From Cellulosimicrobium cellulans (lineage in GTDB: Bacteria; Actinomycetota; Actinomycetes; Actinomycetales; Cellulomonadaceae), in contig NZ_JAFGYF010000005.1 in assembly GCF_016921195.1 (NCBI RefSeq), forward strand, positions 62,001 through 126,000: a stretch of DNA of 64,000 nucleotides, written 5' to 3'. Of this stretch, positions 34,117 through 61,811 are shown one piece after another (positions within the stretch are counted from its first letter, which is position 1; every line of letters begins with the position of its first letter). The notes under the pieces are model-generated. The model made no database searches, was not told where the DNA came from, and was given only the letters and a program-made list of their open reading frames with translations. Both the position numbers and the translations under genes were made by a program.

Positions 34117-35568
34117 TCAGCCTGTCGGGAGCCCGCCGACCTGTCCGGGCGACAGGTTGCCGTCACGGATGTCGACCCAGAACTGGCCGACGGTATCGGG
34201 GTCCAGCTGCACGGTCGACCCCACGTTGCCGCCCGGGCGGTAGTCGGGGTTCGAGATCGGCGGTGTGCCCGTGATGCCGTCGGGACCGTTGGCCTTGCGG
34301 AACGCGAGCGCGAGCTTGCCCAGGTCGATGATGCCGGTGCTCTGGTCGACCGTGAGGGATCCGAGACCCGAGTCCAGCAGCGAGACCTGGTCGCCCGGGC
34401 GGAACAGGATGCTCGGGTTCGCCGCCTTCGAGCTGATGGCGCCGATCACCTGGCGCTGGCGCTCGGCGCGTCCGATGTCACCCTTCGGGTCGGAGTAGCG
34501 CATTCGCGAGAACGCGAGCGCGGTGTGGCCGTCGGCGACGTGGCACCCGGCCGTCCAGACGAGCTCGCTCCTCGGGTCGTTCACGTCGTAGTCGAGGCAC
34601 AGCTCGACGCCGCCGACGGCGTCGACGATGCCCTCGACCCCGCCGAACCCGACCTCGACGTAGTGGTCGACCGTGAGGCCGGTGAGCTGCTCGACGGTCT
34701 GCACGAGCAGCGGCGGGCCGCCCCACGAGTAGGCCGAGTTGAGCTTGCTCGCGCCGTTGCCGGGGATCTCCGCGTAGGTGTCGCGCGGCAGGCTGATGAG
34801 CGCGACCGGACCGCTGGGCGGGGCGTGCAGGAGCATGATCGTGTCCGTGCGCGCGCCCTCGGTGCCGTCCTCGCTGATGCCCTCGCCGCGCGCGTCCGAG
34901 CCGGCGAGGAGGTAGGTGTTCCCGGGTGTGCCGGGCGCGCCGGAGAGGGCCTCGACGTGCTGGATCTTGCCGTTCGCCCAGATGAGCAGGCCCACCGGCC
35001 AGGCGAGGAGCGCGACGATCACGACGCAGGCGACGAGCCCGACCACGCGGCCCTTGCGGACGCGGAAGCCGCCCCCGCCGGTCCGCGGTGCGGCCGGGCC
35101 CGACGGCGGTCGACCGCCCCGGTCTCCCGGCCCGCCCGTGCGTGGGCGCGGGGACGCGTTCGGGCGGCTCCGCGGCGTCGTCGGCACGGCCTGGGCACCC
35201 GCGCGAGGCGCGGACGAGACGCGCGGGGGAGTCGACGCTGCTTGTCCGGGCTGGCGCGCCGGAGCGACGGACGGGGGGAGGCCCGACGCCGCCGAGCTCG
35301 TCCGCGCGCGCGGGCTGCGGGCGGGAGGTGCGGGCGGGGGCGTGCCCTTGCGTGCAGGGGTCACGGGGATCTCGCGCGACGACTGGCGCTTGATGCGCGG
35401 CTCGAGCCGCACGGCGTCGTCGGGGGCGGAGGGACGGGGTCGCGCCTGGGCACGTCCGCTGTTGCCCACCGCGATCGCGTCGTCGACCGACGACGGCCGC
35501 GGGGCGCGGCCGCCCTGCGGCGTGAAGCTGGGAGGGAGCGACCGGGGGTCGCGCGACGGGTCGGTCAT
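34117..35568 (-). CDS. LCP-family (LytR-CpsA-Psr) glycopolymer ligase with long disordered N-terminus
   Basis: 483 residues. A Pro/Ser/Arg-rich cytoplasmic tail of about 170 residues leads to one membrane span (about 173-195, VVGLVACVVIVALLAWPVGLLIW) and an outside LCP domain (215-400). Conserved LCP blocks are visible: LLAGSDARGEG, RTDTIMLLHAPPSGPVALISLPRDTYAEIPG, KLNSAYSWGG and GHTALAFSRMRYSDPKGDIGRAERQRQVI. LCP enzymes attach polysaccharides from lipid carriers to peptidoglycan. It lies 4 bases after a second LCP gene, so both are co-transcribed. The ATG has no strong ribosome site. Confidence 0.92.
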   Translation of the reverse strand: MTDPSRDPRSLPPSFTPQGGRAPRPSSVDDAIAVGNSGRAQARPRPSAPDDAVRLEPRIKRQSSREIPVTPARKGTPPPAPPARSPRARTSSAASGLPPSVAPARQPGQAASTPPRVSSAPRAGAQAVPTTPRSRPNASPRPRTGGPGDRGGRPPSGPAAPRTGGGGFRVRKGRVVGLVACVVIVALLAWPVGLLIWANGKIQHVEALSGAPGTPGNTYLLAGSDARGEGISEDGTEGARTDTIMLLHAPPSGPVALISLPRDTYAEIPGNGASKLNSAYSWGGPPLLVQTVEQLTGLTVDHYVEVGFGGVEGIVDAVGGVELCLDYDVNDPRSELVWTAGCHVADGHTALAFSRMRYSDPKGDIGRAERQRQVIGAISSKAANPSILFRPGDQVSLLDSGLGSLTVDQSTGIIDLGKLALAFRKANGPDGITGTPPISNPDYRPGGNVGSTVQLDPDTVGQFWVDIRDGNLSPGQVGGLPTG

Positions 35569-35572
35569 GGCG

Positions 35573-36865
35573 TCACCCGCACTGCGCGGTCTCGTCGGCG
35601 GCGGAGAACGCCTCCTTGCCGGCTTCCTTCGTCTGCACCGGGGCGGGCTCCGAGGACGCGTGGTCCGGCGGCACGTCTGCGCTCTCCCCGGCCTGTGACG
35701 GCGGCTCCGTGGCCTCGACCGCGCCGTCGGGTCCGCCAGTCTCGTCGGCGGCGGGTGCGGGCGCGACGATCGGCTCGTCGGCGCGCACCTTCGCCCACAG
35801 CTCGTCGGCCTCTGACGTCCAGACGACCTTCGCGTCGGGGTCCTGCGGGTCCGGCGCGTTCGGAACGGTCATGAAGGTGATGTTGCCACTGGTCGCGCCC
35901 TTGAGGCTGAAGGCGAGCCCGGCGAGGCTCGGGATCGACGAGAGGTTGTCGCTCATGGTGAGCGACTTGGTGCCCGCGTCGACGAACCCGTAGATCTGAC
36001 CGAGGTCCGAGAGCACGTTCTTCGAGAGAACCTGATTCACCGTCGCGGCGAGGAGCTGCTGCTGACGGCCGATGCGGCTGAGGTCCGACCCGTCGCCCAC
36101 GCCGTAGCGGGCGCGCGCGAACCCGAGCGCCTGGGCACCGTCCAGCGTCTGCCAGCCCGCGGCGAGCTGGAGGTCCGCCTTGGGCGAGTCGATCGCCTCC
36201 GGGATGCAGATGGGGACGCCCCCGATCGCCGTGACCATGTTCTGGAAGCCGGCGAAGTCGACCACGACGAAGCCGTCGACGAACACGTCGGTGAGGCTCT
36301 CGACCGTCTGCACCGTGCACGCGGCGGCGGAATCGACGTCGCCGCCGACAGTCGCGCCGTTCGCGAACGCCGCGTTGAAGCGCGTGTTCACGGGTGCGGT
36401 GGTCTTGCCGTTCGTCATGTGGCAGACGGGGACGTCCACGCGTGAGTCTCGCGGGATCGAGATCATCTCGACCCTGGAACGATCGGCGGAGACGTGCATG
36501 AGGATCGTGGTGTCCGAGCGCATCCCCTCGACGCCCGCGACCTCGTGGCCGTTCTCGCCCCCGCGCTCGTCCGAGCCCATCACGAGGATGTTGAGCGGCT
36601 TGCCGGCGTTGGGGTCGCTCGGGTTCGGGGTGGACTGCTCAGGTCGGTCCGTGACGAGCTCGAGTGCGTTCGACGAGGCGATGTTGCTCTGCATTTTCGA
36701 CAGCGTCGACGCGCCCCCGATCGCGCCGAAGGTGACGACGGCGGTGGCCACGAGGCTGGCCACGCGGGCGACGCTGTAGCGCCGCAGCGCACGCGCGTGC
36801 GCAGGCCCGCGCGACGGCCGGGAGGCCGCCACGGCACGGCTGCGGGCACGGGCGGGTGACGTCAC
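35573..36865 (-). CDS. LCP-family (LytR-CpsA-Psr) glycopolymer ligase
   Basis: 430 residues. A short basic tail and one membrane span (about 33-55, SLVATAVVTFGAIGGAS) lead to the LCP domain (80-300): ILVMGSDERGGENG, RSDTTILMHVSADRSRVEMISIPRDSRVDVP, NTRFNAAFANG and AQALGFARARYGVGDGSDLSRIGRQQQLL. An acidic Ala/Pro-rich tail of about 90 residues follows, ending in Cys-Gly. The GTG start has TATGCT 8 bases upstream, pointing to a leaderless message. It is divergent from the glycerophosphotransferase-like gene, so wall-polymer synthesis and attachment genes share this 200-base control region. Confidence 0.92.
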   Translation of the reverse strand: MTSPARARSRAVAASRPSRGPAHARALRRYSVARVASLVATAVVTFGAIGGASTLSKMQSNIASSNALELVTDRPEQSTPNPSDPNAGKPLNILVMGSDERGGENGHEVAGVEGMRSDTTILMHVSADRSRVEMISIPRDSRVDVPVCHMTNGKTTAPVNTRFNAAFANGATVGGDVDSAAACTVQTVESLTDVFVDGFVVVDFAGFQNMVTAIGGVPICIPEAIDSPKADLQLAAGWQTLDGAQALGFARARYGVGDGSDLSRIGRQQQLLAATVNQVLSKNVLSDLGQIYGFVDAGTKSLTMSDNLSSIPSLAGLAFSLKGATSGNITFMTVPNAPDPQDPDAKVVWTSEADELWAKVRADEPIVAPAPAADETGGPDGAVEATEPPSQAGESADVPPDHASSEPAPVQTKEAGKEAFSAADETAQCG

Positions 36866-40597: not shown

Positions 40598-41785
<1,188 letters not shown>

Positions 41786-50558: not shown

Positions 50559-51607
<1,049 letters not shown>

Positions 51608-51682: not shown

Positions 51683-52453
51683 TCAGCCGCAGGGAACAGG
51701 GTGGGGGAACCCTGCGGCTTGCCACTGCTGGTAGCTGAGCTGACCGTAGAAGCTGTTGCCGACGTACCAGAGCGCGTTGGTCCAGGAGTACGAGCACACG
51801 TAGTCGCCCGGGAGCATGCGCTGCGCCTTCGGCGTCGGTGAGCCTTCTGCTCGCCACTCGGCGTAGTTCACCGGATATCCCTGGCCGCTGCCGATCGAGA
51901 ACATGTAGGCGACCGAGCTGTCCCAGGTCAGCTTCATGAATCCCGCGTCCCCCAGAACCTCCGGGCTGGGCGAGCCCGCGGCCTTCCACTGGTTGAACGT
52001 CAGCTTGTGGACCTGGCCGTCGAGTTCGACGAAGATCTCGGAGGACGTCGCCCACTGGTGGTAGGTCGATCCCTCGATCCACCCGGCCACGCGCGGCGCA
52101 GGCTTTCCGGCGCGGGACCACTCCGCGAAGGTAAGTTTCTTCCACTCCCACTGGGTCGACGCCTTGTCGAAGAACGACACGGCGTAGATGTCGGCCGACC
52201 ACGGGTATTTGACGAAGTCCGTCGGGACGGGGCGAGGCGTCGGTCGCCCGGCGTCCAACCACTCCTGATAGGTGACGGGGTAGTGGAAGCCGTAGGCGTC
52301 GTCGTGGTAGTGCTGGAAGATCGTTCCCGAGTACGGCACGCTGTAGAAGCCGTCGGGCTGCGCCGCCGCGGGGGACGCGGTCACGAGGGCGAGTGCGCCG
52401 CCGGTGACGAGCGCGAGCAGAGTCGCAAGAGCGCGTCGAGTTCTCTGGTGCAT
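51683..52453 (-). CDS. Secreted EW-repeat protein (five repeats)
   Basis: 256 residues. A signal peptide (RRALATLLALVTGGALALVT, cut after ASPAAA) is followed only by five repeats of about 40-48 residues. Each has an aromatic-rich strand pair and ends in the signature: [60 protein letters not shown] and LSYQQWQAAGFPHP. No catalytic domain is present. I know no named family. By analogy to the carboxypeptidase-fused copy at 60573 I infer wall binding. The ATG at 52453 is chosen because AGGGA lies 5 bases upstream; an ATG six codons earlier would bury that site. Its paralogue lies next to it on the same strand. Confidence 0.75.
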   Translation of the reverse strand: MHQRTRRALATLLALVTGGALALVTASPAAAQPDGFYSVPYSGTIFQHYHDDAYGFHYPVTYQEWLDAGRPTPRPVPTDFVKYPWSADIYAVSFFDKASTQWEWKKLTFAEWSRAGKPAPRVAGWIEGSTYHQWATSSEIFVELDGQVHKLTFNQWKAAGSPSPEVLGDAGFMKLTWDSSVAYMFSIGSGQGYPVNYAEWRAEGSPTPKAQRMLPGDYVCSYSWTNALWYVGNSFYGQLSYQQWQAAGFPHPVPCG

Positions 52454-52478
52454 GAAGTCCCTGCCTGACATAAACCCT

Positions 52479-52510
52479 GCGCTCCTGGTCGACTACCAGG
52501 TTCGTCACAG
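52479..52510 (-). promoter_or_regulatory. Conserved 5'-UTR hairpin of EW-repeat gene, copy 1
   Basis: 32 bases shared with 53436-53467. On the message it reads CUGUGACGAA, a 6-pair stem CCUGGU/ACCAGG with 5-base loop, then AGCGC. A -10 box (TAGGCT, complement of 52519-52524) lies 8 bases upstream, so the element starts the transcript. Two stem pairs differ from the other copy in a compensating way. Confidence 0.55.
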
Positions 52511-52582
52511 GAAGCCACAGCCTACGGCGGGGGGACGGGTACTTGGGCCGGTCGCGGGGAATTCACCCGGGACCTTCGTCCT

Positions 52583-52627
52583 CCGTGTGCGGGCCAGGGC
52601 CAGGGCAGGTCCCTGGCCCGCACACGG
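52583..52627 (-). terminator. Terminator between the two EW-repeat paralogues
   Basis: A perfect 17-base stem, CCGTGTGCGGGCCAGGG / CCCTGGCCCGCACACGG, with an 11-base loop, 16 bases past the stop of the upstream paralogue. The two paralogues are therefore separate transcripts. Confidence 0.8.
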
Positions 52628-52643
52628 CGGGTCTGGGCGTCCG

Positions 52644-53411
52644 CTAGACCGTGCAGGTGGGGGAGGGGAACCCGGCCGCCCGCCACTGGTTGTACGTGAG
52701 CACGCCGCCGTAGCTCCAGCCGTTGTAGAAGAGGTCCTGCGTTCCGCTCATGGTGCACACCTCGTCACCGGGGAGCATGCGGGCGGAATTGGGGGTCGGC
52801 GACCCCTCCGACTTCCACCACTCGTAGGTGACGCTGTAGACGTCTTGGTTGGCGATGGAGTCGTAGAAGACGATCGTCGAGTCCCACGAGAGCTTGTAGA
52901 AGCCGCTGTCGCTGAGGACGTCGGGGACAGGCGAACCCGCCGCCTTCCACTGGTTGAGCGTGAGCTTGTGGGACTCGTCGTCGAGGTAGACGAAGACCTC
53001 GGAGCTGTTCGTGCCCCACTTGTAGTAATAGGAGCCCTCGATGTGCCCTGCGGTGCGAGGCGTCGGCTTGCCCGCCTTGGACCACTCGGCGAACGTGAGC
53101 TTCTTCCACTCCCACTGGGTCGACGCGTTGTCGAAGAACGAGACCGCGTAGATGTTGGACGACCACGGGTACTTGACGAAGTCGGTGGGGACGGGCTTCG
53201 GAGCCGGACGACCGAGGTCCACCCACTCCTGGAAGTTGAGGGGCTGGTGGTACTGCCCCGTGTGCGAGTGGTAGTAGAGCGCGCTCGAGTAGGGCACGCT
53301 GTATACGCCGTCGGACTGTGCCGAGGCGGAAGGGGCAGCAGCGACGGCGACGGCGCCGGCGGTGCCGAGGGCGAGGATCGACGCGAGGGCGCGTCGGAGG
53401 ACGTGGTGCAC
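52644..53411 (-). CDS. Secreted EW-repeat protein (five repeats), paralogue
   Basis: 255 residues, close paralogue of the 51683-52453 protein. Signal peptide RRALASILALGTAGAVAVAA cut after PSASA, then five repeats: [60 protein letters not shown] and LTYNQWRAAGFPSP. The block after the first repeat (PTDFVKYPWSSNIYAVSFFD and on) is almost identical between the two. Cys residues near the end (MSGTQD region and final CTV) match those of the paralogue and could form a disulfide. GTG start. It carries the same 5'-UTR hairpin, so the whole gene with its leader was duplicated. Confidence 0.75.
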   Translation of the reverse strand: MHHVLRRALASILALGTAGAVAVAAAPSASAQSDGVYSVPYSSALYYHSHTGQYHQPLNFQEWVDLGRPAPKPVPTDFVKYPWSSNIYAVSFFDNASTQWEWKKLTFAEWSKAGKPTPRTAGHIEGSYYYKWGTNSSEVFVYLDDESHKLTLNQWKAAGSPVPDVLSDSGFYKLSWDSTIVFYDSIANQDVYSVTYEWWKSEGSPTPNSARMLPGDEVCTMSGTQDLFYNGWSYGGVLTYNQWRAAGFPSPTCTV

Positions 53412-53435
53412 GTATACCTGCCTGGGTGCTCAACT

Positions 53436-53467
53436 GCGCTCCCGGCCGGCTGCCGGGTTCGTCACAG
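53436..53467 (-). promoter_or_regulatory. Conserved 5'-UTR hairpin of EW-repeat gene, copy 2
   Basis: Same 32-base element as 52479-52510, here with stem CCCGGC/GCCGGG. The -10 box TATGCT (complement of 53477-53482) lies 9 bases upstream. The flanks UGUGACGAA and AGCGC are unchanged between copies. Confidence 0.55.
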
Positions 53468-53535
53468 CGAAAGCACAGCATACGGCGCCCCCGACGGTGC
53501 TCCTGCCAGAGGTCGGGTGAGCCAGAACGACACCC

Positions 53536-54180
53536 TCAGTGCGACAGGTGACGCACGAACTCCTGGACGGCGCTCCACTCCGGAAGCAGCCCGGCCGCGT
53601 CGGCCTCGGCGAGGGTGGGCGCCGAGGAGTCCTTTGGTGAGAGCTCGTAGGTGAGCTCGCGCCCGTCGCGTCCGTTCCGCGGCCAATCGATATCGAGCGC
53701 TGGATCGAGTGGGTTGATGCCGTGCTCTCGCCCAGGGGCGTACGGCGCGGAGCACAGATAGGTGACCGTCGACCCGTCCTCGAGCGAAAGGAACGCGTGC
53801 CCGAGGCCTTCGGAGAGGAAGACCGCGCGACGGTCGACGTCGTCGAGCAGCACGGACGCGGTGCGACCGAAGGTGGGAGATCCCCGGCGGATGTCGACGA
53901 CGACGTCGAGCACGGCCCCGCGAGGGCAGGCCACGTACTTCGCCTGACCAGGTGGGACGTCGGCAAAGTGCACTCCTCGGAGCGCACCCGCCGCCGACAC
54001 CGACAGGTTCGCCTGCTTGAGCTCGAGGTCCCGGCCGGTCGTCTCGGCGAAGAGGTCTGACTTGAACCACTCGAGAAACAGGCCGCGGTCGTCCCCGTGC
54101 TGGGTAGGGGTGAAGGACCATGCTCCGGCGATCGGCAGTTCTTCCACCCGCACCAGGACTCTCCGTTCGTTCGAGGACAC
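53536..54180 (-). CDS. rfbC: dTDP-4-dehydrorhamnose 3,5-epimerase
   Basis: 214 residues, third step of dTDP-L-rhamnose synthesis. The cupin-like fold shows HGDDRGLFLEWFKSDLF, ELKQANLSVSAAGALRGVHF (the NxSxSxxGxLRGxHF block with catalytic His), KYVACPRGAVLDVVVDIRRGSPTFG and FLSEGLGHAFLSLED. The pyranose-binding Tyr lies in VTYLCSAPYAPGREHGI. The GTG start is tentative because a -10-like TATCAT lies only 3 bases upstream. It is divergent from rfbD (95 bases between starts), so the two may be co-controlled. Confidence 0.95.
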   Translation of the reverse strand: MSSNERRVLVRVEELPIAGAWSFTPTQHGDDRGLFLEWFKSDLFAETTGRDLELKQANLSVSAAGALRGVHFADVPPGQAKYVACPRGAVLDVVVDIRRGSPTFGRTASVLLDDVDRRAVFLSEGLGHAFLSLEDGSTVTYLCSAPYAPGREHGINPLDPALDIDWPRNGRDGRELTYELSPKDSSAPTLAEADAAGLLPEWSAVQEFVRHLSH

Positions 54181-54275
54181 CCGATGATAGACCCCGACGT
54201 GGGATCCGGACCTGCCAGGCCGACAGGGGCACTCGAACGCTAGGCTGTGTCGCCGTCGTCAACAGGAGGAGTCGC

Positions 54276-55136
54276 ATGCGTTGGTTGGTCACCGGGGCCG
54301 GCGGGATGCTCGGCACGGACGTCGTCGCGACGCTCGGCTCGAAGGGAGAGGTTCTCGCGCTCGGCCGCTCTGATCTCGACATCACGTCCGCCGAAGCGTG
54401 CCAGAACCTGCTCCGCGAGGGTGACGTCGTCGTGAACTGCGCTGCGTGGACCGACGTCGACGATGCCGAGACGCACGAGGGGGAGGCCTTTGCCGTCAAC
54501 GCCGTCGGCGCCGCGAACCTCGCAGTCGCAGCCGCGTCCGTCGGAGCGCGGATGGTGCACGTCTCCACCGACTACGTGTTCGACGGAGAGGCGGGGGTGC
54601 CATATGCAGCAGACGCTGCGCTCCACCCCGTCTCAGCCTACGGACGGACGAAGGCGGCGGGCGAGTGGGCGGTGCGGGCGGCGAGCCCGGCGCACCTCGT
54701 CGTGCGGACCGCCTGGCTCTACGGAGCCAACGGGTCCAGCTTTCCTCGGACGATCGCCAGACTCCTCCGTGAGCGGGGGAAGGTCTCCGTCGTGGAGGAC
54801 CAGACGGGCCAGCCGACGTGGACGGCGGACGTCGCCGAGCTCGTCGCCGCTCTCGTCGTCGCCGACGCGCCGGGCGGGGTCTACCACGCCACCTCGTCCG
54901 GTGCGTGCACCTGGTACGAGTTCGCGCGTGCGGTCGCTGTCGAGCTCGAGATCCCCGTGGAGGCAGTGAGCCCGACGACGAGCGAGGACTTCGCCCGGCC
55001 GGCACCTCGGCCGACGTATTCCGTGCTCTCGCACGACACGATCGAACGCGCGGGGGTGGCGGTGCTGGGCGACTGGCGTGATCGGTGGGCGGTCGCCGCC
55101 CCCTCCGTGGTCGGTGGGCCGGCAGCGGAGGGCTGA
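54276..55136 (+). CDS. rfbD: dTDP-4-dehydrorhamnose reductase
   Basis: 286 residues, last step of dTDP-L-rhamnose synthesis (NADPH-dependent). Rossmann start RWLVTGAGGMLGTDVV, then VVNCAAWTDVDDAE, VHVSTDYVFDGEAGVPY and the catalytic Tyr and Lys in SAYGRTKAAGEWAV. RTAWLYGANGSSFPRTI and VYHATSSGACTWYEFARAVAVE complete the family pattern. ATG with AGGAGGA 5 bases upstream. It converges on the PGRP amidase gene. Confidence 0.95.
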   Translation: MRWLVTGAGGMLGTDVVATLGSKGEVLALGRSDLDITSAEACQNLLREGDVVVNCAAWTDVDDAETHEGEAFAVNAVGAANLAVAAASVGARMVHVSTDYVFDGEAGVPYAADAALHPVSAYGRTKAAGEWAVRAASPAHLVVRTAWLYGANGSSFPRTIARLLRERGKVSVVEDQTGQPTWTADVAELVAALVVADAPGGVYHATSSGACTWYEFARAVAVELEIPVEAVSPTTSEDFARPAPRPTYSVLSHDTIERAGVAVLGDWRDRWAVAAPSVVGGPAAEG

Positions 55137-55153
55137 GAGGCCGTCGGCCGAGA

Positions 55154-56932
55154 CTACGCGTTCTGCCCTTGCCGGATCTCCGAGACCGCCTTGGGGGTCA
55201 GGATGCTGATCTCGGGCACACGACCGTCGTTCAGCGAGAGGAGCCGTGCCCAGGACGAGACCCAGTGGCGCGTCCCTCCTTGGACGAGGAACACGGAGTC
55301 GCTCGACGACGAGCGGATGAAGCGGCTCAGGGGTGGCCCTGCGGCGAGGCGCGACCACTGGGCGGCCGTGACGTCGACGGCGGCCGCGCAACTCGAGCCG
55401 AAGCTGGTGACCAGGTCACAGCTCGACGCGCGCCGCCTCGTGTTTCCGTCCACGAAGGCCACCGTCCCGTCCCGAGGGTCTCGAAGGAACCGCCCGAGCG
55501 GCTTGCCGGTCGCGAGGTAGGACAAGTAGCTGTCGGCCGCGTCGGAGACCCGACCCTGGGCGGAGAGGGAATCGAGGATTCCCGTCGTGGTGAGACGGTG
55601 CTTGGTGCCACCGACGACGAGATACACGTCAGGGCGGTATGGAGACATCACGAGGCTCCCCGTCGCTGTTCCCCAGAGCGCCGAGTACTTCGACTGCTCG
55701 GCCTTGACACGCCGTCGGATCTCGTCCTGCCGTACCCACAAGGTCTGGCCCGGACAGGAGGTCGAAGCGACGTCACGATGGCCGAAGATCGTCGGAAGCC
55801 GCTGCCCGTTGATCACGGTCGTCCCGCCCGCGTCGACGCCGTGGATCGACAGCTTCCAGCCGAGCAGCCGGACGATCGCGTCGACCGCGGCGTTGCTCAC
55901 GGTGGCGGTCTGGTAGTTCCCGAGGACCGACACGCCCGTCGTCGGGGTGTTGTAGCCAGAGACGTGGGCGCCCGTCGTCTCGAGCTCGATCCCGCCTGCA
56001 CGGCCCTCCCAGATCCGGCCGAACTTGTCGACGAGGAAGTTGTAGCCGATGTCCCCCCACCCGCGGGTCTGCGCGTGATACGCGTAGATCCCTCGGAGGA
56101 TCGCCGGGACGTCTCCCGTCCCGTAGGTGTTGGTGCCCGCCGTGTGGTGGATGACGGCGGCCTGGATGTTGCCCTGCGCGGGCGACCACGTCCGCAGCGA
56201 CTCGTCCGCGCCCCACTGGGCGCGGGAGTAGAAGGCGGGCGCCAGCGAGCTACCGGGATACCCCGACGCGACGGCGGCGTCGATCCCGGCGGACGCCGCC
56301 GTTCGGGCGCCCGACAATCCGCTCCCCGAACCTCCGCCGAAGCTCGCGGTGGCAGGCGGAGCGAGTGTGTCCGACGCGTCGGCAGCGCTCGTTCCCGGAT
56401 CGATGATCACGAGTTCGAGGTCGTGGACCTCGCCGACGGCCCCGGTGACCCGGGCTTCGACACGGGACGCGTCGCCGACCACGAACGGTGCCGTCCCGGG
56501 GACCCCGCCCTCGGAGCCCGGCTCGATCTCGAGGGCCTCCCAGCTGCTCACTCGACCGGTAGCGTCTTCGGACCGCACCTCGACAGTCAGCCCGGTCGGG
56601 TCTGCAGGGCCTTGCCAGACGACCCCGACCGTCGCAAAACCGGAGACGTCGGACGAGGCATGGAGGCCGTCGAGCGCGTCCGCCGCCCTCGCGTCGGGCG
56701 AGTCAGCCGAGAATGGCGCGACCGACGGCGACTCACCGTCGGCGGAGGCCGACTCGAGCGGCACCTCCTCCACCGACGGTTCGACCGGTTCGGGATTCGC
56801 CGTCGAGGGAACGGCTGCCGGCACCGCCGTGGAGGCCGTGGGACGGGCGATGGTCGGCCCGGCGACGAGCGTCGTGGCGAGCATGGTGAGGGACGCCGTC
56901 AGCGCGACGGCGCGCCGGGTTCGGGTCAGCAT
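55154..56932 (-). CDS. Secreted PGRP-type N-acetylmuramoyl-L-alanine amidase with VYLVxGG repeats
   Basis: 592 residues. Signal peptide (about 1-29) and a Pro/Ala/Glu-rich segment, then a beta domain of about 120 residues. The PGRP/amidase-2 catalytic domain follows (about 225-400): SRAQWGADESLRTW, the zinc His in AVIHHTAGTNTY, DIGYNFLVDKFGRIWEGRAGG, and GHRDVASTSCPG with the second His and the Cys ligand. The C-terminal 170 residues hold at least three repeats (VYLVVGGTKHRLTTTG, GTVAFVDGNTRRRASSC, SVFLVQGGTRHWVSSW), as in the 44050 protein. It should cut the stem peptide from MurNAc. The position between rfbD and rfbA suggests remodelling of wall that carries the rhamnose polymer. Confidence 0.9.
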   Translation of the reverse strand: MLTRTRRAVALTASLTMLATTLVAGPTIARPTASTAVPAAVPSTANPEPVEPSVEEVPLESASADGESPSVAPFSADSPDARAADALDGLHASSDVSGFATVGVVWQGPADPTGLTVEVRSEDATGRVSSWEALEIEPGSEGGVPGTAPFVVGDASRVEARVTGAVGEVHDLELVIIDPGTSAADASDTLAPPATASFGGGSGSGLSGARTAASAGIDAAVASGYPGSSLAPAFYSRAQWGADESLRTWSPAQGNIQAAVIHHTAGTNTYGTGDVPAILRGIYAYHAQTRGWGDIGYNFLVDKFGRIWEGRAGGIELETTGAHVSGYNTPTTGVSVLGNYQTATVSNAAVDAIVRLLGWKLSIHGVDAGGTTVINGQRLPTIFGHRDVASTSCPGQTLWVRQDEIRRRVKAEQSKYSALWGTATGSLVMSPYRPDVYLVVGGTKHRLTTTGILDSLSAQGRVSDAADSYLSYLATGKPLGRFLRDPRDGTVAFVDGNTRRRASSCDLVTSFGSSCAAAVDVTAAQWSRLAAGPPLSRFIRSSSSDSVFLVQGGTRHWVSSWARLLSLNDGRVPEISILTPKAVSEIRQGQNA

Positions 56933-57019
56933 CGTCCGGGCACCTCCTAGGAGACTCGGGCACCTGTCGGCGCCGTCGTCACGCTAACCCGTTGCCTCTC
57001 CCGTCGCGCGGGGGACGTC

Positions 57020-57883
57020 TCAGGAGTCGAGCAGCCCCAGAAGATACGTGCCGTAGCCGGACTTCACCAGCTTCTCGGCCCGAGCGCGCAGCTCGTCGTC
57101 CGTGAGGAAGCCCTGGCGCCACGCGACCTCTTCCGGCGAGCCGATCTTCAGCCCCTGCCGGTTCTCGATGGTCCGCACGAAGTCCGAGGCTTCGAGCAGC
57201 GAGTCGAAGGTCCCGGTGTCCAGCCACGCGGTGCCACGAGGAAGGACCTCGACCTGGAGCCTGCCTTGCCGCAGGTACTCGCGGTTCACGTCCGTGATCT
57301 CGTACTCGCCTCGCGCGGAGGGCTTCAGGTCGCGGGCGATCGCGACGACGTCGTTGTCGTAGAAGTACAGGCCCGGCACCGCGTAGTTGGACTTCGGTTC
57401 CTGGGGCTTCTCCTCGAGGGAGAGCGCGGTCCCGTTCTGGTCGAACTCGACCACGCCGTACGCGGTGGGGTCAGAGACCCGGTACGCGAACACGGCGCCT
57501 CCGTCGATCCCGTCGAAGCGGGTGAGCTGGGTCCCGAGGCCGGGGCCGTAGAAGATGTTGTCCCCGAGCACGAGCGCCGCGGAGTCGTCTCCGATGAACT
57601 CCGCGCCGAGCACGAAGGCCTGCGCGAGCCCGTTCGGTTCTGCCTGAACGGTGTACGTGATCGAGACGCCGAACTGTGAGCCGTCGCCGAGGAGCCGGCG
57701 GAACTGCTCGGCGTCGTGCGGCGTCGTGATGACGAGGATGTCCTGGATCCCCGCGAGGATGAGGGTCGAGAGCGGGTAGTAGATCATCGGCTTGTCGTAC
57801 ACGGGCACGAGCTGCTTGCTCACGCCGAGGGTGATCGGGTGCAGTCGGGTGCCGGAGCCGCCGGCGAGGATGATTCCGCGCAT
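57020..57883 (-). CDS. rfbA: Glucose-1-phosphate thymidylyltransferase
   Basis: 287 residues, first step of dTDP-L-rhamnose synthesis (Glc-1-P + dTTP). The nucleotidyl-transferase signature [37 protein letters not shown] opens the protein. [44 protein letters not shown] and [21 protein letters not shown] are the usual allosteric and active-site blocks. The ATG is internal to a longer open frame, but homologues begin exactly here. Its -10 (TAGCGT, complement of 57934-57939) overlaps the -10 of the divergent EW-repeat gene. Confidence 0.97.
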
Positions 57884-57932
57884 GGTGGCGATCTTCTCAT
57901 GCCAGGTCCGCCTGTCCGAGGCAGCGCCCGCA

Positions 57933-57939
57933 TACGCTA
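57933..57939. promoter_or_regulatory. Overlapping divergent -10 boxes
   Basis: The 7 bases TACGCTA read as TACGCT on the plus strand and TAGCGT on the minus strand. Thus rfbA and the EW-repeat gene at 57981 could compete for one RNA polymerase site. Confidence 0.45.
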
Positions 57940-57980
57940 CGATCCGCGTGTTCGCACGGCAGGTTTCCGGACGGAGAGCG

Positions 57981-58838
57981 ATGAAGCGGCTCGTGAAGAT
58001 CGTCGCGACGGCGTTGACGGCTGCCGCGCTGGGGCTCTCACTCGCGCCTCCCGCCAGTGCCGAGCCGAACACCTTCCTCGTCAAGTCCCGCTTCGACCCC
58101 ACGATCTATGAGATCTCGGTAGACGAGTCGGGGGCAGCCCTGGGCGGTCGGACTGCGCTGACCTACGCGGAATGGGTCGCCCGCGGGCGGCAGACCGCTC
58201 ACGTCCTCGAACCCGAGTACGCGGGTCTCCCGTGGTCGTCCACGATCTATGCGGTCACCAACTGGCCGGGCGAGACCTGGGCGGATGTCCGCCCCCTGAC
58301 GTACGCGGAGTGGGTCGGGGCAGGACGTCCGCCCGCCGACCGGTCCTTCCCGTTCTGTGAGCGGACGTGGTGCTCAGTCACGCGCTACCCGACATCGTCC
58401 GAGCTCTTCGTGGACATCGAGGGGTCGGGCGGGGTGCACAAGCTCACCTACTCCGAGTGGACGAGGATCGGCGCCCCCGAGGTGTCCCTCGTCCAGACCG
58501 TGGGCTACTACCGGCTCGCGTGGAACGACCGCGTCTTCGCGGCGACGCCGATCTCCATCGGGCCGCGTTCCGCTTACGACTCGGACGTGTACGCCACAGG
58601 ACGCTCGTTGACGCCCCAGGAGTGGCGAGCGTCCGGATCGCCGACCCCCAAGGTGGTCCCGTCCGCCGTGAGGGAGCGTTTCGTCGTCTTCGCGGGGAGC
58701 CGTGACGTCTATTACGACGGGCCAGCCGGCTTCTTCCCGATCACGTATCAGCAGTGGAAGGCGGCCGGTTCACCACCTCCGTCGCCGAAGCCCTTCGGCC
58801 CGCCGGTCGGCGGGATCGTCGTGGCGTCGTCCCGGTGA
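57981..58838 (+). CDS. Secreted EW-repeat protein
   Basis: 285 residues. Signal peptide ([20 protein letters not shown], cut after PPASA), then repeats with [64 protein letters not shown] and [16 protein letters not shown]. The strand part of each unit includes [11 protein letters not shown] or [13 protein letters not shown] Cys pair (FCERTWC) in the second unit is shared with the next protein. The ATG with GGAGAG is used; a GTG 11 codons earlier (57948) is an alternative if the message is leaderless. The stop overlaps the next gene's GTG. No catalytic domain is visible. Confidence 0.73.
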
Positions 58839-59848
58839 GCGGGGGACTCAGCGCGTCGACCCGTCCCGCGGTAGCGGTCGACGTGGTCGGCGACGAGGGA
58901 GGTGGCCTGTCGATCTCCGCCCGGAGCGGATTCCGGGTCCGGGCCGTCGCACTGTTGGTGGCGGCGTTCGCGTTCGCCGCGGCAGCGTCCCCGTGGGGAG
59001 CGGCACCCGCGGTCTCGACCGAGGCGTCGTTCGTGGTCAAGTCCCGCTTCAGTCCGAGCCTCTATCTCGTCGCTGGTTCTCCGGAGACGTGGGGGAGCAC
59101 CCGCAACCCGCGCCAGTATCTCGATCTGGGTTCCTGGCGGGCTCTCGGCTCTCCGGCGCCCGCCGTCTGGGAACCTCGCTACTCGTCGCCGCCGTGGAGC
59201 GACACCATCTATGCGCTGACCTACTGGCCGGACTCCGACGACAGGCACGATGCCCACGCAGACCCGCACGTCCTGACGTTCGACGAATGGCGGTCGGTCG
59301 GGAGCCCCAGGCCCGTCAAGGACTTTCGAGCATGTACCGACGCGAAAGCGATGTGCCGCGTGTTCTCTCGTCCGTCGTCGCTGACCGAGATCTTCGTCGC
59401 GGAGACGGCCGTGCACGCCCCTACCCACAAACTGGCCTACTCCGAGTGGGTCTCGATGGGACGTCCTCTCCCGGACCCGACGGATCGCCAGCTCGGCGTC
59501 TACCGGTACTCGTGGAGTCCCATCCTCTTCTGGGACGTCCCGGAGAACATCGGGCCCGTGCACCACTCCACGACCAACGGTCACTCTGACGCGTGCGGGT
59601 CGCGGCTCGGCTACGCAGAGTGGGTGCGAGAGGGCTCGCCGACACCTCAGACGATCTCGTCGAGCAGAGCGAGCAGGTTCATTCAGGGCCCCCCGCGAGG
59701 CTTCGGCTATGACGACGAGATCTGGTACGACGGCCCCGCGGGCTTCTTCCGGCTGACCTACGCCGAGTGGTCCGGTGCCGGATCACCGAGGCCGACATCC
59801 GTGAGCTTCACGCCGTTCCTTCCCTCGTCCTGGACCTGCACCAAGTAA
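58835..59848 (+). CDS. Secreted EW-repeat protein
   Basis: 337 residues. The hydrophobic signal segment lies at about 38-58 (VRAVALLVAAFAFAAAASPW), preceded by an unusually long N-terminal region, so the true start may be downstream. The mature protein shares its opening (SFVVKSRFSPSLYLV) with the preceding one ([15 protein letters not shown]). Units include LDLGSWRALGSPAP, HVLTFDEWRSVGSPRP, HKLAYSEWVSMGRPLP, SRLGYAEWVREGSPTP and FRLTYAEWSGAGSPRP. The GTG start overlaps the preceding stop (GTGA), so both proteins are made from one message. The units are longer and more diverged than in the 51683/52644 pair. Confidence 0.7.
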   Translation: MSGGLSASTRPAVAVDVVGDEGGGLSISARSGFRVRAVALLVAAFAFAAAASPWGAAPAVSTEASFVVKSRFSPSLYLVAGSPETWGSTRNPRQYLDLGSWRALGSPAPAVWEPRYSSPPWSDTIYALTYWPDSDDRHDAHADPHVLTFDEWRSVGSPRPVKDFRACTDAKAMCRVFSRPSSLTEIFVAETAVHAPTHKLAYSEWVSMGRPLPDPTDRQLGVYRYSWSPILFWDVPENIGPVHHSTTNGHSDACGSRLGYAEWVREGSPTPQTISSSRASRFIQGPPRGFGYDDEIWYDGPAGFFRLTYAEWSGAGSPRPTSVSFTPFLPSSWTCTK

Positions 59849-59873
59849 GAAGCATCGAGCCAGGCCGGCGATG

Positions 59874-60500
59874 TCAGCGGACACGGCCGACCGCCACAAA
59901 CTCGTTGTAGACGAAGAGCTCTCCTGCGCTCCGCGGGAACGGGAACGACGACCAGCCCTCGACCTCGAGACCGAGCGAACGGAAGATGCTCACGAGACGC
60001 GGACCGTCCACGAAGTCCGTGTGGCTCGAGTCGCTCCTGAACCCCCGCTCCTGTGGGCAGACCGCCATGACGACCGCTCCCGGCAGGAGCGTCTCGACGT
60101 AGGGGCGAAGGAAGCTCTCCTGGCTCCGCGGCTCCAGGTGCTCGAGCACGTGGGCCACCAGTAGCCCGTCCCGGGGACGGTCGCTGTCAGGAAGCTGGAA
60201 GAACTCGTCGGGCAGATACGCGCGGTGCCCCATGGCGCGGCAGAACGCCACGGACGTGGGGTTGTGGTCGACACCGACGCTTCCTGTGACGAGCGTGGAC
60301 AGGTTGCGACCGATCCCGCAGCCGAGGTCGATCGTCGACCGGCCACCCAGGTGTCGCCGCAGGTTCCATCGGTACGGAGCCTGGACGTGCAGCAAGCGCT
60401 TCCATGTGCTCCCCTGGAGCGCGCGGAGGCGGTCGGTGTAGTCCTCGGATGTCGTGTCGAGGTGCTGGGGTGCGCCGTCGAAGGCAGACTCTTCAGACAC
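59874..60500 (-). CDS. Class I SAM-dependent methyltransferase
   Basis: 208 residues. SAM-binding motif I STIDLGCGIGRNLSTL (about 55-70), acidic end of strand 2 GSVGVDHNPTSV, and motif post-I LLVAHVLEHLEPRS are clear, as in methyltransferase-11/-23 proteins. It may methylate a sugar, lipid-linked glycan or small molecule; the substrate is unknown. GTG is used because GGAGGGAAC precedes it directly; a longer open frame upstream has low-complexity His/Glu-rich sequence and is unlikely to be translated. It is divergent from the carboxypeptidase gene. Confidence 0.85.
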   Translation of the reverse strand: MSEESAFDGAPQHLDTTSEDYTDRLRALQGSTWKRLLHVQAPYRWNLRRHLGGRSTIDLGCGIGRNLSTLVTGSVGVDHNPTSVAFCRAMGHRAYLPDEFFQLPDSDRPRDGLLVAHVLEHLEPRSQESFLRPYVETLLPGAVVMAVCPQERGFRSDSSHTDFVDGPRLVSIFRSLGLEVEGWSSFPFPRSAGELFVYNEFVAVGRVR

Positions 60501-60572
60501 GTTCCCTCCAAGCTGCGCCGGTTCCGTCGAGAGTACACGGGGGGGGTTTCGGGACGCGGGAGGGGGTGCGAC

Positions 60573-61811
60573 GTGCAGGCCAAGACTCTCGCCAGCCGTG
60601 TGTTCGTCCTCGTGAGCGTGCTCGTCGGTGTGCTGCTCGTCGTCGGGGCGGTGGCTCACGCCGACGTGCGCCTCGACCGTCTCCCCCGTCAGGCGGACCG
60701 GTCAGGGGTTCTCGACGCGGGTGGAGGCGGGACTGTCGATCGCGATGGCGTGCTCGCGACGGCGACAGTGCAATACATGAAGAAGCCGCACGATCCCGCG
60801 ATCTATGAGGTCGACGGTGCTGCACGTCGTCAGCTCACCTACGCGCAGTGGGTCGCCGCAGGATCGCCGGTTCCCGAACCGACACGGACCGAGGTGGTCC
60901 GGTATCCGTGGTCACCGACCCTCTACGCGGTGACGTACTGGTCGTCAGCGGACTGGGACTGGGACAGGTTGACCTGGGAGGCATGGTCGGCAACGGGTTT
61001 CGTCGCACCGCGAGCGGCGGGATGGATCGACGGGAGCTCGATCTATCGGTGGGCTTCCGCGCCGGAGCTCTTCCTGCGGGGGCCCGACGGGAGCCTGCAC
61101 AAGCTTGCCGAGCAGGAGTGGGCGGCGACCGGGTATCGCGCTCCCTCGGTCCGCGCCAACCAGGGGTTCGTCAAGCTCACGTGGCACGACTCGATCGCAC
61201 GCATGTCCGATCTGCGCTACGGACAGGGGCGGCCGATCAGCCTTGCCGAGTGGCTCGCTGAAGGCTCGCCGACGCCTCGTGTCGCCGCGCGCTTCCCCGG
61301 GGACATCTTCGAGAAGGACTTCTCCGGCCCGGCGATCTTGTACTCAGGACCGACGGTGCAGAAGTACCTCACGCACGCCGAGTGGCAGTCGGCTGGCGCG
61401 CCGGCCCCCTACACAGGACGCAACGGACGGCTCGACACGTCGACGCTGTGTCCGGTGTCGTGGAATCGCTCGGTCCTCCTGCGGTGCGACGCCCAGCGCG
61501 CCCTCGAACGACTCAACAGCGCGTACTGGGGCCGCTTCGGGAGGTCGATGTCGATCGGCTACGGCTACCGGACCTACGCGACGCAGGTGTACCTCCGCAT
61601 GACGCTCGGCTCGGTCGCCGCCGTCCCGGGGACGTCGAACCACGGGTGGGGCCTCGCCCTCGACACCGCGGAAGGGTCGCAGCACGGCTTCGGATCGCCT
61701 TCGTACGAGTGGCTCAAGTTGAACGCGCCCGCGTTCGGGTGGCAGGCGCCGCGGTGGGCGTGGCAGGACGGTTCCAACCCGGAGTACTGGCACTTCGAAT
61801 ACACCGGCTGA
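60573..61811 (+). CDS. Secreted EW-repeat protein with C-terminal VanY-type D,D-carboxypeptidase
   Basis: 412 residues. An N-terminal hydrophobic segment (about 6-26, ASRVFVLVSVLVGVLLVVGAV) is a signal peptide or anchor. Five EW repeats follow (about 70-285): RQLTYAQWVAAGSPVP, DRLTWEAWSATGFVAP, HKLAEQEWAATGYRAP, ISLAEWLAEGSPTP and LTHAEWQSAGAPAP. The last 120 residues are a VanY/DdcB domain with GYRTYATQ, the zinc motif SNHGWGLALD and EYWHFEY, all needed residues in place. It should trim D-Ala-D-Ala stem peptides. This fusion is the best evidence that EW repeats act at the cell wall. GTG start with GGAGGGGG 7 bases upstream. Confidence 0.85.
   Translation: MQAKTLASRVFVLVSVLVGVLLVVGAVAHADVRLDRLPRQADRSGVLDAGGGGTVDRDGVLATATVQYMKKPHDPAIYEVDGAARRQLTYAQWVAAGSPVPEPTRTEVVRYPWSPTLYAVTYWSSADWDWDRLTWEAWSATGFVAPRAAGWIDGSSIYRWASAPELFLRGPDGSLHKLAEQEWAATGYRAPSVRANQGFVKLTWHDSIARMSDLRYGQGRPISLAEWLAEGSPTPRVAARFPGDIFEKDFSGPAILYSGPTVQKYLTHAEWQSAGAPAPYTGRNGRLDTSTLCPVSWNRSVLLRCDAQRALERLNSAYWGRFGRSMSIGYGYRTYATQVYLRMTLGSVAAVPGTSNHGWGLALDTAEGSQHGFGSPSYEWLKLNAPAFGWQAPRWAWQDGSNPEYWHFEYTG

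Follow-up and report, generated by a model that had tools for sequence, protein, structure and literature searches.

EW-repeat proteins of Cellulosimicrobium cellulans: an exported module that probably docks its carriers on the producer's own cell wall

What is the role of five neighbouring genes of Cellulosimicrobium cellulans whose exported products consist, wholly or in part, of one repeat of about 44 residues? The genes lie within 51.7-61.8 kb of a 64,000-nucleotide stretch (assembly GCF_016921195.1, contig NZ_JAFGYF010000005.1, positions 62,001 to 126,000), hereafter termed the window, and their products are termed EW1-EW5. An earlier, sequence-only reading of this DNA had described the repeat and proposed a test of binding to cell walls. 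Our comparisons identify EW as a genuine domain family that is unnamed in the libraries searched and is of a known functional kind: it is probably a secreted extracellular module that docks its carrier on the wall of the producing cell. The comparative evidence for such wall targeting is good. Fused peptidoglycan enzymes, wall-polysaccharide neighbours and prophage-like copies all strengthen the initial guess.

Inspection of the translations placed the five genes where the sequence-only reading had put them. Each protein begins, as read by eye, with a hydrophobic leader of the signal-peptide type, followed by five EW units, giving 25 in total. EW1 (51683-52471, minus strand; units at 52235-52357, 52094-52234, 51962-52093, 51830-51961 and 51698-51829) has as its closest paralogue EW2 (52644-53411, minus strand), whilst EW3 (57981-58838), EW4 (58835-59848, with a GTG start) and EW5 (60573-61811) are on the plus strand. 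The GTG of EW4 overlaps the EW3 stop at 58835-58838, which suggests translational coupling of these two genes. As had been stated earlier, the units form the entire mature protein in four cases, namely EW1-EW4; EW5, with units at about 60750-61409, additionally carries a C-terminal VanY (peptidase M15) carboxypeptidase domain (61479-61808, plus strand) that passes the curated cut-off of its family (Pfam PF02557, 37.1 bits versus 25, E-value 3.2e-9). In the alignment of this domain with PDB sequences an H, a D and an H, which we take to be the zinc ligands, are identical to those of 5hnm.

The repeat is genuine and goes beyond chance. A hidden Markov model (HMM) trained solely on EW1 and EW2 (ten units) detected all 15 units of EW3-EW5 with 6.9-32.3 bits, against a top score of 4.0 among 600 shuffled EW3-EW5 sequences, and when run over the window genes called by our own script it reported only the five EW genes. 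The core consensus of 65 units reads roughly fyK..wsptIy.vt....LTYaEW.aaGsPtP; the pattern SxxIYxVxxW, part of the original description, is by eye strict in unit 2 and not strict in the other units. A repeated fold, the point for which a structure prediction had been suggested, is seen in the AlphaFold2 model of the mature part of EW1 (mean predicted local distance difference test score, pLDDT, 90.1; predicted template modelling score, pTM, 0.71), where each unit is composed of three beta strands and a short helix bearing the EW signature.

Divergence between units within one window protein is strong (mean identity 31 %, 50 pairs), in line with the first description; its companion claim, that copies in some genes are near-identical, had to be rejected, as the within-protein maximum is 43 %. 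The closest pairs are instead found between genes, with EW1 and EW2 units at the same position sharing 50-87 % identity. In a set of 13 five-unit domains, mean identity is 45 % between units of the same position and 29.5 % between units of different positions, and for 64 of the 65 units the nearest unit in another protein occupies the same position. Moreover, five units are present in 44 of 69 EW proteins, with four in 15, three in five, and one, two, six, seven and eight units once each. This array has the look of an old block whose five dissimilar units have become fixed. A freely expanding tandem repeat is not favoured, given the same-position neighbours and the prevalence of five units; a tree of the units formed clean groups for positions 3 and 5 only.

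Searches of Pfam, NCBIfam, PHROGs and PDB sequences placed the units in no characterised family, so the earlier remark that no named domain with this signature was known stands for these libraries. With the window proteins, Pfam and NCBIfam (the latter for the EW proteins) returned only chance-level matches up to an E-value of 10, the VanY and amidase domains aside; PHROGs gave nothing credible for EW1-EW4 (best E-value 0.025), and PDB sequences gave a chance-level 0.68 for EW1 and no match for a 13-row profile. EW1 was likewise unmatched in 50,697 phage and 72,556 plasmid records. For 68 of the 69 EW proteins (a 56-residue edge fragment, L101:71-241, was left out; the set includes one identical pair, L103 and L121, and one nearly identical pair, L023 and L026), Pfam at E ≤ 1e-3 matched 27 families, and the 25 of them listed are all partner domains. 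LysM, SH3 types, WXL, CWB1/2, SLH and PG_binding were absent from these families, and also from the 30 EW proteins listed singly. A description of the repeat was not found among the open-access titles and abstract starts listed, which does not show that none has been published.

The distribution of EW among genomes is patchy. Counting the C. cellulans genome itself in every tally, the 13-row profile found carriers in nine of 221 genomes (three of 25 genera) of the family, in nine of 396 (seven of 110 genera) of the order and in three of 394 of the class, and a five-row profile found them in two of 396 genomes of the phylum, three of 59 relatives and two of 17 genomes of the genus. As the large searches scored 6-13 candidates per genome, carrier counts are lower bounds, as are the total of 18 carrier genomes and the number of matches in each, which ranges from one (nine genomes) to ten in the genome labelled G826, with seven in the C. 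cellulans genome. A separate scan added five loci from Planctomonas deserti, an uncultured Microbacteriaceae and a Micrococcaceae bin, and the EW family spans two orders. Genes were called with a caller trained on window genes, and gene starts elsewhere are approximate.

Among the 68 EW proteins, the Pfam partners are VanY (six), Peptidase_M23 (six), Excalibur (three), SpoIID, SLT, CAP and GmrSD_C (two each) and, among others found once, NLPC_P60, Polysacc_deac_1, Transglycosylas (L054), 5'-nucleotidase, FG-GAP and laminin-G; reprolysin is also among the partner families and Amidase_2 was seen as well (L051). Fusion to different peptidoglycan-active enzymes (VanY, M23, SpoIID, SLT, NLPC_P60, Polysacc_deac_1 and Amidase_2) is thus recurrent, and such fusion to varied wall enzymes is the usual behaviour of wall-targeting modules. 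The array stands ahead of VanY and M23 and behind SpoIID and Amidase_2, its position relative to the enzyme varying as would be expected of a mobile module. Some partners resemble secreted hydrolases of substrates outside the cell, such as the nuclease-like GmrSD_C and 5'-nucleotidase, and one is an FG-GAP protein, all of which would suit a module that binds polysaccharides of the environment or of competitors, for adhesion, nutrient capture or predation. We nevertheless regard binding away from the producer's wall as highly improbable, as the VanY, SpoIID, Transglycosylas and amidase partners, together with the rhamnose-gene neighbours described below, indicate the cell's own wall. At L011:3717-5159, L092:9144-10748 and L112:8571-10127 the array follows a nuclease-like region of a secreted protein, which one would not expect as the partner of a wall module; GmrSD_C scores above its cut-off in the first and below it in the second (a protein also labelled L063), and the third is similar by eye.

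In the window the EW genes are interleaved with the genes for dTDP-rhamnose synthesis, as NCBIfam searches with ten neighbouring proteins showed. RmlB, dTDP-glucose 4,6-dehydratase (50612-51607, plus strand; TIGR01181), RmlD, dTDP-4-dehydrorhamnose reductase (54276-55136, plus strand; TIGR01214), and RmlA, glucose-1-phosphate thymidylyltransferase (57020-57883, minus strand, divergent from EW3; TIGR01207), all score above cut-off, and RmlC, dTDP-4-dehydrorhamnose 3,5-epimerase (53536-54180, minus strand, with its start at either 54153 or 54180), matches TIGR01221 at E 7.4e-40 with 136.6 of the 155.75 bits required, below cut-off. The same wall-polysaccharide region includes Glf, UDP-galactopyranose mutase (40598-41785, plus strand; TIGR00031, above cut-off), two LytR-CpsA-Psr glycopolymer transferases (34117-35046 and 35573-36832, minus strand, starts approximate; TIGR00350, above cut-off), and a glycosyltransferase whose best match, far below cut-off, is GlfT1. 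A further neighbour of the EW genes is a secreted N-acetylmuramoyl-L-alanine amidase without EW units, P0006 (55154-56932, minus strand; Amidase_2, E 1.4e-15).

This arrangement recurs elsewhere. Defining an Rml neighbour as a protein with at least 40 % identity to RmlA-D of the window, within fetched stretches of 5-21 kb (64 kb for the window itself), some of which end at contig ends, we found one at six of 46 EW loci, counted by hand with L087 plus L088 and L091 plus L114 each taken as one. The six lie in G000 (the window), G405, G551, G835, G826, where RmlD is the sole one observed, at a distance of about 5 kb from the EW gene, and G1235, from another order. The probability of six or more among 46 would be 7e-6 at a rate of 1 % per locus and 3e-4 at 2 %, with the rates being estimates and related genomes not independent. 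Pfam matches additionally back the dTDP-rhamnose genes of L110, L088 and L091, as well as a Glf next to an EW gene at L114. Moreover, five of the six EW-VanY proteins are in Rml-linked stretches (EW5, L027, L088, L091 and L110), the exception being L090.

A tree of 61 of the 69 arrays (one identical copy and seven arrays, including the eight-unit L110, were left out, the seven by a length filter) places EW1 and EW2 in a group of eight (support 98/97) with rml-linked arrays of G551 and G835 and with four G859 and G886 arrays that are not rml-linked. EW3 and EW4 group with four G826 arrays, one of them rml-linked (100/95), and EW5 with the VanY arrays of G405 and G835, all rml-linked (94/98). 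In three EW lineages, then, proximity to rml genes is seen in at least two genomes. The EW-VanY array of G551 stands apart from those of EW5, G405 and G835, with other G551 and G679 arrays (100/93), and the EW-VanY pairing therefore appears to have more than one origin.

Given that dTDP-rhamnose genes surround or adjoin EW genes in C. cellulans and in five further genomes, the likeliest ligand, which we put forward tentatively, is the rhamnose/galactofuranose wall polysaccharide encoded around them. The nearest competitor is peptidoglycan itself, with the rml genes nearby merely because this is a region of wall-biogenesis genes. The commonest catalytic partners do act on peptidoglycan, and most loci have no Rml neighbour in the fetched stretch; however, rml proximity recurs in two orders and three tree lineages, and one would expect a pure peptidoglycan binder to occur more evenly than in nine of 221 genomes. 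Peptidoglycan as the ligand is accordingly somewhat unlikely in our estimation.

A different use of the arrays is suggested by their clustering: the EW-only proteins might build a coat or lattice through EW-EW contacts, on which the fused enzymes would dock. Adjacent EW genes occur in the window (five, four of them EW-only), in L084 of G826 (six) and in L088 of G551 (five, four of them EW-only), and the unlike units in fixed order would also suit a lattice. Half of the carrier genomes, however, have a single EW match, by the lower-bound counts above, and thus no partner for such contacts, which makes a lattice quite unlikely.

Further copies of EW are found in four prophage-like stretches of two genomes, that of C. 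cellulans itself and G679. The former encodes two more EW proteins (L023:16833-17765 and L026:223-1152, in separate prophage-like stretches) that are by eye about 99 % alike, which suggests recent transfer between prophages. Each has a C-terminal tail, labelled Excalibur by Pfam in the one tested singly. The L023 gene is antisense and closely follows an endolysin gene and a gene with a small product of unknown PHROG; the prophage around it encodes portal, major head and tape-measure proteins. The stretch of the second copy (L025/L026) has an integrase gene and a gene read by eye as tape measure. G679 has two phage-like stretches in which identical EW-M23 genes (L103:8442-9482 and L121:8046-9086) adjoin tail genes, and a small protein next to them was read as a holin, for which PHROGs gave no match; the EW-M23 protein may be an endolysin that carries a leader peptide. 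Such positions are typical of lysogenic-conversion and lysis genes. No relative of A1 was found among viral contigs, although prophage-like copies occur in these two genomes.

Several findings weigh against docking on the wall, or against the ligand proposed. Structure searches with the EW1 model gave no whole-domain match that supports carbohydrate binding. At 40 of the 46 loci no Rml neighbour is present in the fetched stretch, such that the rhamnose link may hold for some subfamilies only. Patchiness extends even into the genus (two of 17 genomes), and the ligand cannot therefore be something that always requires an EW protein. Finally, with CAP, GmrSD_C, 5'-nucleotidase, FG-GAP, laminin-G and reprolysin among the partners, 'surface' describes the target better than 'peptidoglycan'.

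Taking these points together with the fusions and neighbourhoods, we still favour docking on the producer's own wall. The exported EW arrays would hold their carrier there; in fused forms such as EW5, an enzyme that edits peptidoglycan would thereby be brought to its substrate, the four EW-only proteins could serve as wall-bound decoration or spacer proteins coating the polymer, and the prophage proteins might mask it. In its fullest form, EW would be a lectin for the rhamnose/galactofuranose polysaccharide, with its genes lying within those for its own ligand, that places wall-editing enzymes and coats the polymer, with the prophage copies being lysogenic-conversion genes that cover a likely phage receptor and block superinfection; as a whole, this account is unlikely. 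If the wall-docking reading is right, a group of Actinomycetota with secondary wall polysaccharides that we judge to be little studied would gain a named wall-targeting module, and many exported proteins at present without a family match would gain a function. It would also yield a probe that binds wall polymers of rhamnose or galactofuranose, and would account for the occurrence of the same protein in wall-polysaccharide gene clusters and in prophages.

The window holds a second kind of repeat, 'YLV..G..RH', in P0007 (44050-46515, minus strand), which has no Pfam match, and, by eye, at the C-terminus of the amidase P0006 (55154-56932, minus strand). P0007 with relatives from two genomes aligned to 30 EccB proteins with an hhalign probability of 87.8 (P 3.3e-6, obtained without a shuffle control), so that repeats of the EccB type may occur outside type VII secretion. 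The amidase alignment reached only P 0.008.

EccB is also the starting point for comparing EW with known systems, as EccB1 chains top the list of structural matches to the EW1 model, the likeness being weak. EW might then be a divergent repeat of the EccB/PlyCB type with the same role. The sequences lend this no support: EccB (PF05108) was matched by none of EW1-EW5 up to an E-value of 10 and is absent from the 25 of 27 families listed for the 68 proteins, and a comparison of EW and EccB profiles scored 10.7, inside the range of shuffles. We consider such kinship distinctly improbable. More generally, no convincing PDB match to the model was found; the 50 Foldseek matches listed are local only, with template modelling (TM) scores of 0.11-0.16 and root-mean-square deviations of 12.9-22.9 Å. 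Many of them are to beta-propeller proteins. A propeller arrangement, raised in the sequence-only reading, is not supported by such local matches, and each unit has three strands and a helix. Five-bladed propeller lectins of the tachylectin-2 type resemble EW in having five units of about 45 residues; they differ in that EW unit numbers from one to eight occur, and in the same low TM-scores and high deviations.

Other parallels lie with wall enzymes and with known wall-binding modules. Like the VanY/M15 D-Ala-D-Ala carboxypeptidases, EW5 has the domain with H, D and H kept; in EW5 the array precedes it, and three PDB relatives match residues 344-412 only. Known wall-binding modules accompany wall hydrolases and also form part of phage lysins. 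EW is unlike them in having no Pfam sequence match among the families listed, in its three strands and a helix with the EW signature, and in being an array of mostly five unlike units. PlyCB, the subunit with which the phage lysin PlyC binds cell walls, targets a rhamnose polymer (PMC4769845, PMC13059722), the kind of polymer also proposed as the target of EW. The known modules of Gram-positive surface proteins, LysM, SH3 types, WXL, CWB1, CWB2 and SLH (PMC5817068), attach non-covalently to the wall and are often repeated, features that they would share with EW in its proposed role.

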